Shown here in pieces: positions 27,896 to 35,533 of a stretch of 64,000 nt of DNA. The position numbers and the translations under genes were made by a program. Every line of letters begins with the position of its first letter. The first letter of the stretch is position 1. The notes under the pieces were generated by a model. The model was not told the origin of the DNA. It ran no database searches and worked only from the letters and a program-made list of their open reading frames with translations. The stretch comes from Pseudobacteriovorax antillogorgiicola (GTDB lineage: Bacteria > Bdellovibrionota_B > Oligoflexia > Oligoflexales > Oligoflexaceae), in NCBI RefSeq assembly GCF_900177345.1, contig NZ_FWZT01000018.1, positions 62,001 through 126,000 of the forward strand, read 5' to 3'.

Positions 27896-29899
27896 ATGAG
27901 ATATCTTAAATTACTGCTTATCACCCTTTCCATTTTCAGTAGCCTTGCTGTGTCACAAAGTCGCTCTAGTAAAGACCTCGTTAGTATAGATTTTCCAGAA
28001 CCGACTGATATTAAGGATGTCATTCGAACGGTAGCTCTATGGACAAACAAGAATGTCATCATGGGCCGGGGTGTCAGAGGAAAAATTCAAATGATCTCTC
28101 CCCGGAGGGTGACAAAGGTCGAGGCATATCAAGCATTTTTATCGGCACTTGAAGTTCTCAATTTGACTACGGTTGAAACGGGTAAGGTGATCAAGATTAT
28201 TCCCAGCCGCAAGGCCTACAAAGAGAATCTACAGATTTACCAAGGCACGAGCTGGGCTCCTCGAACGGATAACATGATCACTCAGATTGTCCCTTTGAAG
28301 TATATCAGCGCTCGGCAGATAAGACGTTCGTTGTCCCGGATTATTTCGTCTCGGTCGGTGGTTGCACATGAAGCCACAAACACTCTTATTATAAGCGATA
28401 CGGGGCACAAGGTACGAAAGATCTTACAGATCATTGAACTTATTGATGTGTCAAGAAAGCAGCCGACAGTAGCGCTTGTCGCGATTCGACATGCGGATGC
28501 GAAAACAGTCGCCAAGCAAGTGAACGACATTTTACAAGCTCGATCCAGCGGTAAGCGACGGCGATCCCGCTCCAGACCAAGTCACAAAGTAATGGCAGAT
28601 GAACGGACTAATTCTGTGATTGTATTTGGACCTACCCAGACTCTAAACGATATCAAAGCTTTGATTCGTAAGTTCGATATTCGCCTGGACTCTCCTGATG
28701 GTGGAGCCCAAATTCACGTTCGTTATTTAGATTATGTGGATGCCAAGAAGCTGGCAACCACACTCAGCTCGCTAGTCCAGGGCAACGATAGGAGTCGTTT
28801 GAGTCGTCTTCGAAGGAGGAGGATCAGAAGCAGAGACAAAAAAGCTAAAACTGAAAATGAAAGCTCGGTGGCAACCCTTTCATCAGACGTTAAAATTACT
28901 GCCGACGAAAGTGCAAACGCCCTAGTGATTAAGGGGACCCGTTTAGAATATCGATTGCTCAATCGTTTGATCCGACAGATTGATCAGAAACGTGCGCAAG
29001 TCTATTTGGAAATGGATATTCTCGATATAAAGGTTGGCAATAACTTGCAGTTCGGCACTTCGATTATCACTGGTGAAGGGGAAGACAATCTAGTTTCCTA
29101 CGGCTGGCAAGGGGGAAAGATCGCTCCTATTGTAGCAGCAGGCCAGGGTGAGAATACCAGTCTAGATACCAGTGCTAAACAATCGATCGCGCAGGCTTTG
29201 GGTAAAGACTTTACCCTTGGCATCCTGTCTTCAAGCGAGATAGATATCCCTGGAATCGGTAGCGTAACGCCTGGGGCCTTGATCTCCATGCTCAAGGCAG
29301 ATGGCACCACTAGGATTCTTTCGTCACCCCATATTCTCACCGTAGAGAATGAAGAGGCCAAGATTGTGGTCGGCAATAAGTTGTTCTTTAAGTCAGCACA
29401 AGATTCTGGGGTTCCTGGGGGCGGAGCTGTGGAGAAAGTTGAAGAAGAAGATGCTGATCTCAGCTTAGAAGTGACTCCAAATGTGAGTCATGATGGAAGG
29501 TACGTCACTATGAAAATTGATATCGAAGCCAATGAAGGAGCTATCGACCCCTCGACATCCTTGCCCAATATTATCAAACGGCAGACTTCGGTTGGGGTGA
29601 CGGTGAAGAATGGCCAAACAGCCGTCATCAGCGGCTTAAGGAAGCAGCGAGAGGAACAGAGTTACCAAAAGATTCCGCTCCTGGGTGACATTCCTGTGCT
29701 CGGTTGGTTATTCCGTAATACCAATGTCAGTAAGGATGAAACAAGCTTGATGATCACACTCAAACCCCATGTCATCTTTGGAGCTAATGACTTGCAGGCT
29801 GTTTATGATAAAAAGCTTGAGGAACGTGCTGATCTACTGAAGGGACTATTTGGTGATGATCCGTGGCTTGACCACCACGCTGCCCGAGAGACTCACTAG
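27896..29899 (+). CDS. gspD: Type II secretion secretin GspD
   Basis: 667 residues. Signal peptide (MRYLKLLLITLSIFSSLAVS). N-terminal periplasmic N0-N3 domains occupy about residues 25-345, with repeats TNTLIISDTG, RTNSVIVFGPTQ and SANALVIKGTRLEYRLL. The N3 units contain Lys/Arg/Ser-rich insertions (GKRRRSRSRPS, LRRRRIRSRD). The secretin core follows about 365-630, with VTPNVSHDGRYVTMKIDIE and QTAVISGLRKQREEQSYQKIPLLGDIPVLGWLFRN, both diagnostic. It forms the outer-membrane channel for folded exoproteins. It is on its own here; no other gsp genes lie in the window. A short C-terminal tail may bind a pilotin. Confidence 0.93.
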   Translation: MRYLKLLLITLSIFSSLAVSQSRSSKDLVSIDFPEPTDIKDVIRTVALWTNKNVIMGRGVRGKIQMISPRRVTKVEAYQAFLSALEVLNLTTVETGKVIKIIPSRKAYKENLQIYQGTSWAPRTDNMITQIVPLKYISARQIRRSLSRIISSRSVVAHEATNTLIISDTGHKVRKILQIIELIDVSRKQPTVALVAIRHADAKTVAKQVNDILQARSSGKRRRSRSRPSHKVMADERTNSVIVFGPTQTLNDIKALIRKFDIRLDSPDGGAQIHVRYLDYVDAKKLATTLSSLVQGNDRSRLSRLRRRRIRSRDKKAKTENESSVATLSSDVKITADESANALVIKGTRLEYRLLNRLIRQIDQKRAQVYLEMDILDIKVGNNLQFGTSIITGEGEDNLVSYGWQGGKIAPIVAAGQGENTSLDTSAKQSIAQALGKDFTLGILSSSEIDIPGIGSVTPGALISMLKADGTTRILSSPHILTVENEEAKIVVGNKLFFKSAQDSGVPGGGAVEKVEEEDADLSLEVTPNVSHDGRYVTMKIDIEANEGAIDPSTSLPNIIKRQTSVGVTVKNGQTAVISGLRKQREEQSYQKIPLLGDIPVLGWLFRNTNVSKDETSLMITLKPHVIFGANDLQAVYDKKLEERADLLKGLFGDDPWLDHHAARETH

Positions 29900-29998
29900 C
29901 CGTGCAAGGTGCAGGTTCCCCAAAATTCTCGCTTAATCATTGATTGAACCGCCCTCAATAGTCTAGATTTTCCCTAGTCTATATGGGAGGAGATAGTC

Positions 29999-32900
29999 AT
30001 GGATGTTAGGGAAGCGGGGCCAAAGGGCTGGCGAGTTTTTGCAGACCGCGGTGGCACGTTCACCGATCTAGTGGCAATCGATCCCGATGGTCACATTCAA
30101 GTGCAAAAGTTGCTTTCTCAGTCTGACCACTACGAAGACCCGATCCTAGAGGGAATCTCGCGGTTGACCAGTAGTTTTGAAAGCCGTGCTCAACTGATCG
30201 AGTTGGCTGTAGGGACTACGGTGGCCACCAATGCTTTTCTCGAAAGAAAGGGCAAGTCATGCGCTCTTGTGACAACTCTTGGCTTCCGCGATATCCTTGA
30301 AATTCGCGGCCAGAATCGGGCTGACTTGTTTGCTCTCCAGATCGATAAGCCCCAGGCTCTATGTGATACTGTTACCGAAGTTCCCGAGCGGATTTTGTCA
30401 GATGGAAGTGTCGAGCAAGCTTTAAACATGAACCTGGCTCGTTTCGAACTGAGTCGCTTGCGAGACATGGGTTACGAGAGTCTTGCTATTTCACTCATGA
30501 ACGCTTCGCAGAATCCTGCCCACGAACTGGCTCTAGGTGAGTTAGCCCGAGATATGGGATTTAAGCATGTGGCTCTAGGACACCAGCTTGCGAAACTGGA
30601 TAAGTATGTTCTACGCACGGAAACAGCCGTGTTTGATGCATATCTAACACCCGTAGTACGTAAATATACAGCCAAACTTTGCGAACAGACCGAAAGCCAA
30701 AAAGTCTTTTTCATGCAGTCCCACGGGGGATTGTGTCAGTCCTCACAGCTTACAGGCCCACATGCTCTTTTATCAGGCCCGGCAGGAGGACTCATTGCTT
30801 CCATCAAGAGTTGCCAAGCTCACGGGTATGAAAAGGTTATCACCTTCGATATGGGAGGTACTTCAACAGATGTTGCTATTTATTCGGGCAACTACACCTA
30901 CGATCACGAACCGAAGTTTCACGGTTATCAAATCCAAGTGCCCATGCTCGACATCCATACCGTGGCGGCTGGCGGTGGATCGATTCTAAAATTTGATGGC
31001 GAGCGATTTCAAGTCGGTCCCGAATCAGCGGGAGCCGATCCTGGCCCTGCCTGTTACCGCAAGGGAGGGCCACTTACTGTTACGGATGCGAACTTGTTTT
31101 TGAAGCGCATTCGAGCTGAACACTTTCCGAAAATTTTCGGCCCTTCCCAAGACCAAAGCCTCGACGAGCAGATCGTTGCTCAAAAGTTTTCTCAGTTGAG
31201 TCAGGAATTGAATCTTCCTGCCGAGGATATTGCTAAGGGCTTTTTAGATGTTGCAGTGGAAACGATGGTACGGGCCATAAAAAGTATTTCCATCCGTAAG
31301 GGGCATGATCCTCAAGACTTTGTACTTTGTTGTTTTGGGGGAGCTGGGGCGCAGCTAGCCTGCCCTGTAGCGGAGCGGCTTGGCATTAAAAAAGTTTTTA
31401 TCCATCCCCTATCTAGTGTTCTATCAGCGTTTGGTATGAGTCTTGCGGATGAGAAATCGCAGCTTCGAGATCTTGTTGATCAGCCTCTCCATTCTCTTTC
31501 TGATGAAGACTTTCATCAATTGACAAGAAAGCTTTCTAAGCACGTCAGCAACGGGATGATAAGCCAGAATTTAAAGCCATCATTTATTTTCCACTTGAAG
31601 CTTCAAGGGAGTGAAACGATATTTGATGTTGCAGCAAACGACCCTAAAGAAGCCAGTCAATTTTTTAGTCAGAATTATACCAGGATCTTTGGTCTTGAGG
31701 CTGATGCGGAAAAAATCATCTTGGAAAGCCTCAGTGTAGAAATGTCGTCACAATCGAGGGCTTATTGGTTTAAGCAGGACTTCCCAGCGTCGCCACTAGC
31801 TTACGGGCCTTGCAATATTACCTTGCCCAACTCTAGCTTATTTTTAGATGAGGGTTGGACTGGTAAGCAAGAACGAAGCGGAGAATGGCTGCTACAGCAG
31901 GCCCAAAACCGTCATGTCATCGAACGGCCCGAGGCGGTGGAATTAGAAATTTTTTATCAGAAGTTCCAGTCCCTCGCAGAGGAGATGGGAAGTGTCTTAA
32001 GGCTCACTGGTTTCTCTGTCAATATTCGCGAAAGACTGGATTTTTCCTGTGCGGTCTTTACCGCCTCAGGGGAACTCATTGCCAATGCTCCCCATATTCC
32101 GGTCCATTTGGGCTCTATGGGAGAATGTCTTAAGGTAGTGGTTCAGAAATTTGCTCATAATGCTAAACCAGGGGATAGCTTTATTAGCAACTCACCACTC
32201 TTTGGAGGAACTCACCTGCCAGACATTACTGTGATGACGCCGGTGTTTTGGCAAGGTAAGATTGTCAACTGGCTGGCCTCAAGAGGTCACCATGCGGATG
32301 TTGGTGGTAGTTCACCGGGCTCTATGCCTGCTCTATCGAAGAGTCTTTCTGAAGAAGGAGTCGTGATTGAACCACAATATCTGGTTAGAGAAGGAAAATT
32401 TCTCGGATCAAAAATCCTAGAGCTACTGACTATGGGCTCTATGCCTGCCCGCAAACCTGAGCAGAATATACTGGACTTGAAGGCTCAATTAGCAGCAAAT
32501 CGCCGTGGTTTGCAGATCTTTGAAGGCTTGCTTCAGGAGTATGGTCTAGAGCATCTTGAAAAATACAGCGAAAAATTACTGGCATACTCAGCAGATCGGA
32601 TCCTAGATGTTACACAAAAATTCGATGGTAGAACAGCACAGATAGACTTAGACGAGGGTCGTTCCCTTAAAGTTGCTCTAAAGGTAAGGCCTCAAGAAGG
32701 GTTGGACATCGATCTATCCAGTTGCTCGGATCGTGGACTTCACAACTTCAACACGCCCCAGGCAGTTGTTCGTGCGGCAGTGTTATTTTCACTCCGTTGC
32801 GTTCTAAAGGAGGATATTCCTCTCAACGACGGTATTATGCGAGTCCTCAACATCAGGATTTCAGAGGGATCGATTCTGGACCCATCTCCTACAAGTGCCA

Positions 32901-33895
32901 TCGTCGCTGGCAATGTCGAGACGAGTCAAGCTCTTTGTGACTTGCTGCTGGATGGATTCGTCGGCTTAGCTCACTGCCAAGGTACGATGAATAACGTCAG
33001 CTTTGGCAACGAACACTTCCAATATTACGAGACTCTGGGAGGGGGAAGTGGAGCTGGAGCCGGCTTCCATGGAGCATCATGCACCCAGGTGCACATGACC
33101 AATTCTGTGCTGACTGACCCCGAAGTTTTGGAGCGACGATTTCCCGTAGTGCTTCGCAACTTCGCTCGTCGGTGGGGAAGTGGCGGTCTTGGGAAGTTTT
33201 CAGGTGGGGATGGCATGTATCGACAGTTTGAATTAGCGCAAACCCTGGAATTCAACGTGTTATCCCAAAGGCGAAGCACTTGCCCTAAAGGAAGGCAAGG
33301 AGGTGACGATGGACTCGCGGGGAGAAACAGCATCGAGGTGGATCTCAAGAGTCAGGCGATGGCAGGGTGTTTTTCTATCACGTTACAAAAAGGCGATCTC
33401 GTCTCTATTGAGACACCGGGAGGAGGGGGGTATGGTAGCCCTGACTTAAACCAGAATAATCTGATTTTTGCCTATGGTTCGAATCTAGATCCTCTACAAA
33501 TTAAGGGTCGCTGCCCCTCTGCAAGAATTGTTTGTCGTGCTGTGCTACCAGAATATAGCATCGGCTTTAGTCGTTTTTCTGAAAAGCGCCAGGGGGGAGT
33601 TGCCGACATCGTTCCAAAGGCTGGAGCAGAAGTATGGGGACTTGTCTATTCCTTGAGTCCTGAAGACCTTGCTGCCCTCGATGAGATCGAGGGTCACCCC
33701 GATCACTATGAGCGGGTAGAGCTGGAAGTCAAACAGGATACACCCGAAGGGCCAAGCTTTAAAGTTTGGGCCTATCAAGTGAAGGACAAGGAGCATCACA
33801 TTCCTCCTACCGAGGAATATCTATGGTTGGTTCACAAGGGGCAGCACATCTTGAATGCCCCTCGCTATATACTTCAATCTACGGTGTGCAGCTAG
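29999..33895 (+). CDS. 5-Oxoprolinase fused to gamma-glutamylcyclotransferase
   Basis: 1298 residues; GGGAGGAG lies eight bases before the ATG. Residues about 10-510 are the HyuA half of ATP-dependent 5-oxoprolinase (ADRGGTFTDLVA; FDMGGTSTDVA; AADPGPACYRKGGPLTVTDANL). About 640-1145 are the HyuB half (GTHLPDITVMTPVF, ETPGGGGYG). Residues 1153-1298 form an added gamma-glutamylcyclotransferase-like domain: FAYGSNLDP at 1157-1165, the typical P-loop, and DEIEGHPDHYERV near 1228, with the acidic catalytic region. Cyclotransferases release 5-oxoproline from gamma-glutamyl compounds and 5-oxoprolinase turns it into glutamate, so the chain holds two successive steps of gamma-glutamyl breakdown. It is convergent with the next gene, overlapping by 17 bases. 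Confidence 0.93.
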   Translation: MDVREAGPKGWRVFADRGGTFTDLVAIDPDGHIQVQKLLSQSDHYEDPILEGISRLTSSFESRAQLIELAVGTTVATNAFLERKGKSCALVTTLGFRDILEIRGQNRADLFALQIDKPQALCDTVTEVPERILSDGSVEQALNMNLARFELSRLRDMGYESLAISLMNASQNPAHELALGELARDMGFKHVALGHQLAKLDKYVLRTETAVFDAYLTPVVRKYTAKLCEQTESQKVFFMQSHGGLCQSSQLTGPHALLSGPAGGLIASIKSCQAHGYEKVITFDMGGTSTDVAIYSGNYTYDHEPKFHGYQIQVPMLDIHTVAAGGGSILKFDGERFQVGPESAGADPGPACYRKGGPLTVTDANLFLKRIRAEHFPKIFGPSQDQSLDEQIVAQKFSQLSQELNLPAEDIAKGFLDVAVETMVRAIKSISIRKGHDPQDFVLCCFGGAGAQLACPVAERLGIKKVFIHPLSSVLSAFGMSLADEKSQLRDLVDQPLHSLSDEDFHQLTRKLSKHVSNGMISQNLKPSFIFHLKLQGSETIFDVAANDPKEASQFFSQNYTRIFGLEADAEKIILESLSVEMSSQSRAYWFKQDFPASPLAYGPCNITLPNSSLFLDEGWTGKQERSGEWLLQQAQNRHVIERPEAVELEIFYQKFQSLAEEMGSVLRLTGFSVNIRERLDFSCAVFTASGELIANAPHIPVHLGSMGECLKVVVQKFAHNAKPGDSFISNSPLFGGTHLPDITVMTPVFWQGKIVNWLASRGHHADVGGSSPGSMPALSKSLSEEGVVIEPQYLVREGKFLGSKILELLTMGSMPARKPEQNILDLKAQLAANRRGLQIFEGLLQEYGLEHLEKYSEKLLAYSADRILDVTQKFDGRTAQIDLDEGRSLKVALKVRPQEGLDIDLSSCSDRGLHNFNTPQAVVRAAVLFSLRCVLKEDIPLNDGIMRVLNIRISEGSILDPSPTSAIVAGNVETSQALCDLLLDGFVGLAHCQGTMNNVSFGNEHFQYYETLGGGSGAGAGFHGASCTQVHMTNSVLTDPEVLERRFPVVLRNFARRWGSGGLGKFSGGDGMYRQFELAQTLEFNVLSQRRSTCPKGRQGGDDGLAGRNSIEVDLKSQAMAGCFSITLQKGDLVSIETPGGGGYGSPDLNQNNLIFAYGSNLDPLQIKGRCPSARIVCRAVLPEYSIGFSRFSEKRQGGVADIVPKAGAEVWGLVYSLSPEDLAALDEIEGHPDHYERVELEVKQDTPEGPSFKVWAYQVKDKEHHIPPTEEYLWLVHKGQHILNAPRYILQSTVCS

Positions 33896-35189
33896 CAATA
33901 TCGTGATTCTTAAGCCATCGCCATGCATCTCCAGCATGGAGCAAGCCACGACCGGTCTGCTCGGGGCCAAGCTGGCCTTCCTGTACCGTGGCCTTAAGAG
34001 CTTGGGCAACTAAGTTTGGCTTTAATTTTCCATGAGCCCTTAGTTGGTGATCCAGCAACAAAGCCACGACTCCCGTTAATTGAGGAGCCGCGAACGAGCT
34101 GCCAGCTTCAAAGTTATTGGTGGACCAAGTGTAGATGCCATCAGCTGCAATACCAAACGATTGATCTTGAACCCCCGTGTGGTCGCCCGGTACTGTCGCA
34201 GTCCTTGCTGTCTGCTCTTTCGAAAGAGCAAGGTTGATTGAAAATAGCAAGTTGCTAGAAGTTTTTTGATGGGATGAAACAAACTCATCGATTAATTTAA
34301 GATCGTAGCTAAACAGACTTCCCAGTGGGGGCAGATTTAGTTCTTCCCTGATAGGGCTCAAGTTTCCCAAAAGATCAGTACCTGTATTGCCGAGAGATTT
34401 GCTAACGATCTTACTGTCGAGTACTTTCTGTAGAGCTAAGCTAAATTGTGGATCGAGTTTGCCATTTTGTTCCGCAAAGGCGCGACTCATATTGACGATG
34501 GTAATATCATCTCGAGTGCTAATCCATTGAATGGCTTGCCCGTAGTTCGATGAATCAGAGGCTATGGGTACAATGCGCGCCTTGGGAGCGATCGAAAGGA
34601 TGATGTCAATGACCGAGTTACCGTGATTGAGAGCCACTGGGTCCCCAAAGCTGACCAAGTCTTCAATGGTCCCTTGGCTATAATATCCTCTCTGCTTTGC
34701 CAAAAGATCTGGTTCGAAGACGTCAAATACGGCAATGGTGATTCCACGACCATTCAGATGGCTTGGCAGTTCGTCGATTCCCACACTTAGACCGGGGTGA
34801 TAGGTCCGTATGAACTCGTTCACAGTCCTTCGAAAACGGGCGACTGATTGGCTTGCTTGATCGAACTTGCTAGCATTCATCTCTTGAAAGTCAGGGTTTT
34901 GAAAACTGAAAAGCAGGGTTGCAAGGGAGACGAACTCCGTGATTCGATTGCCCCATTCCTGCATGCGCCATTCCTCAAAAACAGCTTTTTGGGGATCTTT
35001 TAGATTTTGGATGGCTTTCTGGTAGGTTTCGAAGGAGTCGATCAATGGTGTGACCGGATCCTCACCCGGTAGTTGAGCCAATGTTTTCAGCTCCTTGATC
35101 GCAGAGCGATACGAAGAAAGACTTTCTCCGAAGCTTGTTCCAGCACAAAACATCAAACAAATCAGAAACTTTAAGTGGATATTAAACAT
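33879..35189 (-). CDS. Secreted subtilisin-like (S8) serine protease
   Basis: About 436 residues with a signal peptide (FLICLMFCAGTSFG). The S8 catalytic residues are visible: Asp about 156 (ITIAVFDVFEPD), His about 189 (ALNHGNSVIDI) and Ser about 365 (NNFEAGSSFAAPQLTG), plus the oxyanion Asn in SLGNTG. The N-terminal 110 residues look helical and are unlike a standard I9 propeptide. The S8 core is short and the region between Asn and Ser contains an insertion. The ATG at 35189 is preceded by GAAGGG; a TTG one codon upstream is also possible. It may be for nutrient degradation in a predatory or saprophytic lifestyle. Confidence 0.85.
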   Translation of the reverse strand: MFNIHLKFLICLMFCAGTSFGESLSSYRSAIKELKTLAQLPGEDPVTPLIDSFETYQKAIQNLKDPQKAVFEEWRMQEWGNRITEFVSLATLLFSFQNPDFQEMNASKFDQASQSVARFRRTVNEFIRTYHPGLSVGIDELPSHLNGRGITIAVFDVFEPDLLAKQRGYYSQGTIEDLVSFGDPVALNHGNSVIDIILSIAPKARIVPIASDSSNYGQAIQWISTRDDITIVNMSRAFAEQNGKLDPQFSLALQKVLDSKIVSKSLGNTGTDLLGNLSPIREELNLPPLGSLFSYDLKLIDEFVSSHQKTSSNLLFSINLALSKEQTARTATVPGDHTGVQDQSFGIAADGIYTWSTNNFEAGSSFAAPQLTGVVALLLDHQLRAHGKLKPNLVAQALKATVQEGQLGPEQTGRGLLHAGDAWRWLKNHDIASCTP

Positions 35190-35533
35190 CAATGGGGTTC
35201 CCTTCTATAGATCCTAGTGGGGCGGGACCATAGCAAATTTATTTGAACTAGAACAGTGCTTACCATGACTGTTTTGATCCAGGGCAAAACCAGTTTCGCA
35301 GCTCTGCAGTGAGTGGAATATCTAGGTACTTGGGTTTTATTGAGATATCATAGCGAGCGTGCCCTGCTTTTAATGAGGAGAATCAAGGACTATACCTACC
35401 ATCTAGCAACGGCGAAGCACTTCGAGATACTTAAAAGCTTCGATCAATGGTTGCAAAAAAATCGCGATATCTTGGACAAACTTTAAAATCGTCATAATCT
35501 TTCTGCTGAAAGTTTGTGATAAGCCTCTCAATC
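35190..35533. other. Intergenic region with a possible 57-codon ORF
   Basis: Some 340 bases. Plus strand 35313-35486 is open for 57 codons from GTG, or 37 from ATG 35373 (MRRIKDYTYHLATAKHFEIL ...). The composition is protein-like, but no Shine-Dalgarno precedes either start and nothing similar is known to me, so I do not call it a gene. A hairpin GCCTCT/AGAGGC (35525-35530 with 35539-35544) overlaps the stop region of the next minus-strand gene. Confidence 0.3.

Follow-up and report, generated by a model that had tools for sequence, protein, structure and literature searches.

To our knowledge, gamma-glutamylcyclotransferase (GGCT) and 5-oxoprolinase, which catalyse consecutive textbook steps of the gamma-glutamyl cycle, are described as separate proteins. 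GGCT acts on gamma-glutamyl amino acids and yields 5-oxoproline, and ChaC is the glutathione-specific cyclotransferase. The HyuA-HyuB superfamily includes caprolactamase, whose activity requires the two phosphate-site Asp residues of CapA (D11 and D295), according to mutants, and the Asp-His-Asp-His metal site of CapB (D41, H99, D102 and H124). Its activated lactim has been proposed to travel inside the protein from the HyuA site to the HyuB site (PMC8453981).

We analysed a stretch of 64,000 nucleotides from Pseudobacteriovorax antillogorgiicola, called the window hereafter, in which one gene codes for HyuA, HyuB and GGCT domains. GGCT, HyuA and HyuB are known families; the novelty lies in their union on one chain and in the fact that no other gene for the two steps was detected beside it in the six fusion genomes checked. 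We found no description of a single-chain HyuA-HyuB-GGCT protein in the literature searched, which lay outside most subscription journals and the domain-architecture databases.

A single frame for HyuA, HyuB and GGCT domains

A sequence-only reading of the window had described a frame of 1298 codons encoding complete HyuA and HyuB followed by a C-terminal cyclotransferase-like domain, and Pfam analyses bore this out (Table 1). The frame starts with ATG and contains no internal stops. Its product matches Hydant_A_N (residues 12-186, 1.6e-46), Hydantoinase_A (residues 206-484, 1.5e-100), Hydantoinase_B (residues 646-1148, 5.9e-163), GGACT (PF06094; residues 1156-1273, 3.4e-14) and AIG2_2 (PF13772; residues 1211-1288, 8.6e-11), and all five matches exceed the curated cut-offs. 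The HyuB half terminates in TPGGGGYG, with the first strand of the GGCT domain about eight residues further on.

Chance or a frameshift is excluded because nine other genomes encode HyuA, HyuB and GGCT in this order within a single open frame; seven of these nine fusions are complete, and two are cut by contig ends. We similarly give practically no credence to an artefact of annotation or assembly that merged two genes, as the ten genomes carry the fusion free of stops and, in several cases, deep within long contigs.

Table 1. Coordinates of the fusion gene, its parts and neighbours, and of other genes discussed in the text. Positions without a locus prefix are those of the window.
Feature	Coordinates	Strand	Basis or remark
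Complete HyuA-HyuB-GGCT fusion gene, 1298 aa	29999-33895	+	Open frame, Pfam; same layout in nine other genomes
Ribosome-binding-like GGGAGGAG, upstream of the fusion-gene ATG	29985-29992	+	Sequence motif only
HyuA half, residues 12-484 (ATPase part)	30032-31450	+	Pfam, motifs
HyuB half, residues 646-1148 (metal-site part)	31934-33442	+	Pfam, motifs, predicted fold
HyuB end (GGYG) and short linker SPDLNQNN	33425-33460	+	Alignment; comparably short linker in other fused proteins
GGCT domain, residues ~1154-1298	33458-33892	+	Pfam, alignment, profile, predicted fold; YGSN, catalytic-type Glu E1231
GspD-like secretin	27896-29899	+	N0, Secretin_N and Secretin domains
Weak subtilase-family (PF00082) frame	33879-35192	-	
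Unfused HyuAB protein of G387	L164:2223-5594	-	Nests within the fused group
Unfused HyuAB protein L038 (Halobacteriovoraceae)	L038:4992-8435	+	Nests within the fused group
GGCT + indoleamine 2,3-dioxygenase (PF01231) + FAD/NAD reductase domains + cytochrome b5	L111:2582-7393	+	G005; domain scan of L111 only
MFS transporter-HyuA-HyuB, 1729-codon frame	L116:3003-8186	-	G024; domains scanned
MFS transporter-HyuA-HyuB, 1729-codon frame	L115:2536-7722	-	G020

The neighbours of the gene in the window are a secretin gene and a subtilase-like gene. The former stops 99 bases short of the fusion gene, and co-transcription of the two is possible; the latter lies on the opposite strand and shares the last 17 bases of the fusion gene. 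At other fusion loci, the neighbours, as read from translations, are ABC exporters, a desaturase, MscL with a nuclease, or PyrD. The neighbours thus vary among genomes, and the fusion gene has no fixed partner; at the five loci inspected, no GGT or glutathione genes were seen in an operon with it. Gene order hence lends no support to the pathway proposed below.

Catalytic residues and proposed reaction

We compared the GGCT domain with solved structures. A single-sequence search matched human GGCT at 8e-15, and a profile built from fused and stand-alone relatives gave human GGCT as the best match (4.6e-36). Entries of the GGACT (gamma-glutamylamine) type matched this profile more weakly (1e-3 to 3e-6), and it retrieved no ChaC chain at E <= 0.01. 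Similarly, Pfam gave no match to PF04752 (ChaC) in the fusion protein. The predicted fold of the domain (mean pLDDT 88.8) also has human GGCT as its best PDB matches (rmsd about 1.8, TM 0.82-0.83), with a sequence identity of ~30%. A model of HyuB together with GGCT (pLDDT 87, pTM 0.82) matches N-methylhydantoinase/CapB and GGCT structures alike.

The sequence-only reading had considered that the catalytic Glu might be missing. It is present: E1231 aligns with the Glu replaced in two human GGCT entries (by Q in 3cry and by A in 2rbh), which we take to be E98 of the human protein. This Glu and the GSN loop are invariant in the alignment of the fused proteins (10/10), the loop reading YGSN in the protein of the window and FGSN in the others. 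YGSN is found at residues 1159-1162, as had been claimed, and the D-E-I-E-G motif exists as well, at residues 1228-1232, where it had been placed near 1229-1232. Going by alignment and predicted fold, the added C-terminal domain is of the GGCT type, and neither of the GGACT nor of the ChaC type. The breakdown of glutathione suggested earlier is therefore possible only indirectly, since with a GGCT-type domain glutathione would need GGT or another step before GGCT could act.

The domain might instead be an accessory one and not a cyclotransferase, comparable to the same-fold C-terminal domain of allophanate hydrolase and urea amidolyase. Foldseek likewise matched these two enzymes (4iss, 5i8i) with this fold, and the related caprolactamase needs bicarbonate (PMC8453981), so that an auxiliary carboxy-intermediate step is conceivable for the GGCT-like domain. 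However, the 4iss and 5i8i matches are 11-15% identical, compared with 30% for GGCT, and the Glu and GSN of cyclotransferases are unchanged across the fused proteins. We consider an accessory role to be very improbable.

In the HyuA half, D16 (in DRGGTFTD) and D284 (in DMGGTSTD) are, from their motifs, the probable counterparts of the two CapA Asp residues. Mapping by motif and spacing similarly suggests that D681, H739, D742 and H764 of the HyuB half correspond to the CapB metal site, with the same spacing of 58/3/22. The nearest unfused relatives of the HyuAB part are single chains from other bacteria that resemble OPLAH (~40-48% identity per half), with caprolactamase and N-methylhydantoinase at a far greater distance. 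A segment of human OPLAH, an approximate query that serves as a lead only, shows 43.5% identity across the HyuA part.

The superfamily spans hydantoinases, caprolactamase and carboxylases, and no NCBIfam equivalog reaches its cut-off for the fusion protein, so that no curated oxoprolinase model decides on the substrate. HyuAB might then open another lactam or a hydantoin, with the GGCT domain forming some other cyclic compound from gamma-glutamyl-like amides. Nevertheless, from what is known of its family, GGCT supplies exactly 5-oxoproline, and it is the OPLAH-like chains that are closest to HyuAB; we regard a different substrate as improbable. From its sequence relationships, 5-oxoproline is the likely substrate of HyuAB.

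The earlier proposal of two successive steps, in which GGCT makes 5-oxoproline and HyuAB opens it, is thus strengthened: the fusion is confirmed, and by sequence comparison the catalytic residues of both enzymes appear to be in place. On the basis of sequences and models, we infer with good confidence that the fusion protein is bifunctional and salvages gamma-glutamyl compounds in the cytoplasm, a reading that extends to its activities, substrate, location and coupling in vivo. The C-terminal GGCT domain would cyclise gamma-glutamyl amino acids to the free amino acid and 5-oxoproline. The HyuA site would then activate this lactam using ATP, and the activated lactam would move to the HyuB metal site, where its ring would be opened to give glutamate. 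The net reaction would be gamma-Glu-X + ATP + water -> Glu + X + ADP + Pi. A single chain would fix the GGCT and HyuAB activities at 1:1, and the ATP-driven second step would drain 5-oxoproline. The gamma-glutamyl compounds might come from prey or from the turnover of the cell's own glutathione.

Distribution and history of the fusion

The HyuA-HyuB-GGCT fusion was found in ten genomes, namely that of the window, a second from its class and eight from the order of genome G363, which also contains the Halobacteriovoraceae MAG (Bdellovibrionota). Within the phylum of the window, 2/58 genomes carry it (the window's own and its class relative G056, where it is cut by a contig end), as do 8/129 genomes of the order of G363; four of those eight fusions were contained in a draw of 290 genomes from the phylum of G363. 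Only two fusions, both already known, came from 383 genomes across Bacteria. A 398-genome sample of Pseudomonadota, in which OPLAH-like genes are common, had no fusion among the matches listed, where a fused match would rank top. A scan of genome contigs yielded only five relatives, all unfused, without any named fusion. Among plasmids, tblastn found HyuAB-type matches in 973 records; the best of these matches end at or before residue 1209, and no fusion was present among the matches listed; GGCT-only matches are annotated as, or resemble, separate genes.

Five fused proteins aligned with that of the window are 45-47% identical to it in HyuAB and 43-46% in GGCT. Across the two phyla, the corresponding values for fused genes are 47-50% and 43-47%, and both halves have thus been retained to a similar degree.

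We also determined which related genes accompany the fusion. The fused domain is the sole PF06094 match in all six fusion genomes tested. PxpA (PF03746) is absent from the seven genomes tested, including those six, and ChaC (PF04752) is absent from the six, including that of the window. In contrast to ChaC and PxpA, GGT is present in 6/6 of these genomes, and so are PF02955 (GshB-like) proteins. The best PF02955 protein of the window genome has its top score against glutathione synthase models, yet this score is below their curated cut-off, and we therefore grade glutathione synthesis in this genome as likely only. Only one HyuA/HyuB homologue occurs in this same genome.

In a tree of GGCT domains, six fused domains form one clade (support 100/98) separate from the stand-alone GGCTs, which rules out an independent fusion in each genome. 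HyuAB trees place the fused proteins in a supported group that also takes in three unfused ones, those of G009, G387 and the Halobacteriovoraceae MAG, and the unfused protein of G387 is the sister of the fused protein of G273. The Halobacteriovoraceae protein was considered as the unfused ancestor and ruled out: both it and that of G387 nest within the fused rows, and no GGCT remnant is found downstream of the unfused HyuAB genes at the loci of G387, G009 and L038. Both trees are explained most simply by a single fusion event, after which the GGCT module was lost at least twice; the fusion may also have been transferred between lineages. Coupling of GGCT with HyuAB is not essential, because members of the clade (G387 and the Halobacteriovoraceae MAG) have no GGCT domain.

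These apparent losses, the nesting of unfused proteins and the AU test, which rejects the ten fused rows as a single HyuAB clade (p 4.5e-6), also suit a variant of our best explanation, in which two active domains are simply held on one chain, with no channelling or kinetic gain, the joining having been near-neutral and inherited in one lineage. Against this variant, the fusion has been kept with intact catalytic residues across a deep divergence between two phyla (HyuAB identity 45-50%), and its GGCT domain is the only gene of that family in the genomes tested. We give near-neutral joining a little less than an even chance. A stronger form of the bifunctional reading, in which the protein would be a channelling enzyme, seems rather unlikely to us. 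It would be an ATP-driven gamma-glutamyl hydrolase releasing little free 5-oxoproline, which a single fusion event would have fixed in Bdellovibrionota-like bacteria and which would regain glutamate from gamma-glutamyl peptides derived from prey or from the cell.

Yet other fusions were met in the order of the window genome. Four genomes have GGCT-first frames of ~1450-1605 aa (L111, L112, L113 and L114), whose GGCT domains form one clade in the GGCT tree. From its domains, L111 looks like a self-sufficient heme dioxygenase with a GGCT domain. In two genomes, G020 and G024, HyuAB is joined to an MFS transporter, a possible substrate supplier and likely an uptake protein. Unlike in the fusion of the window, the partner is N-terminal, and the HyuAB part falls outside the fused-GGCT group in the tree.

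Implications and comparison with known enzymes

That this natural fusion is conserved provides genetic evidence for a coupling of GGCT and 5-oxoprolinase in some bacteria, and the fusion offers a single-chain protein with which coupling or channelling can be measured. It suggests that stand-alone proteins of the GGCT family may feed OPLAH-type enzymes elsewhere, and indicates a way by which bacteria devoid of PxpA or ChaC could turn gamma-glutamyl compounds into glutamate.

PxpABC, the prokaryotic 5-oxoprolinase, carries out the same overall reaction, but its proteins are unrelated to the fusion. Caprolactamase CapAB (PDB 6YRA) and N-methylhydantoinase (9H03) share the HyuA and HyuB folds and the catalytic residues with it. 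However, they have no GGCT domain, CapAB consists of two chains with a caprolactam pocket, and, when structures are aligned over the HyuB half, both are only 22-24% identical to the fusion. Human GGCT (C7orf24; PDB 2PN7, 2I5T and 3CRY) has the fold, the YGSN loop and the catalytic Glu in common with the domain of the window; it is a small stand-alone protein, whereas the latter is fused to the enzyme that would consume its product. Finally, OPLAH/OXP1, the eukaryotic-type 5-oxoprolinase (EC 3.5.2.9), has the same HyuA-HyuB order in a single chain and the same ATP-site and metal-site motifs. In contrast to the fusion of the window, with its added GGCT domain, OPLAH-type single chains stop directly after the glycine-rich end of HyuB.
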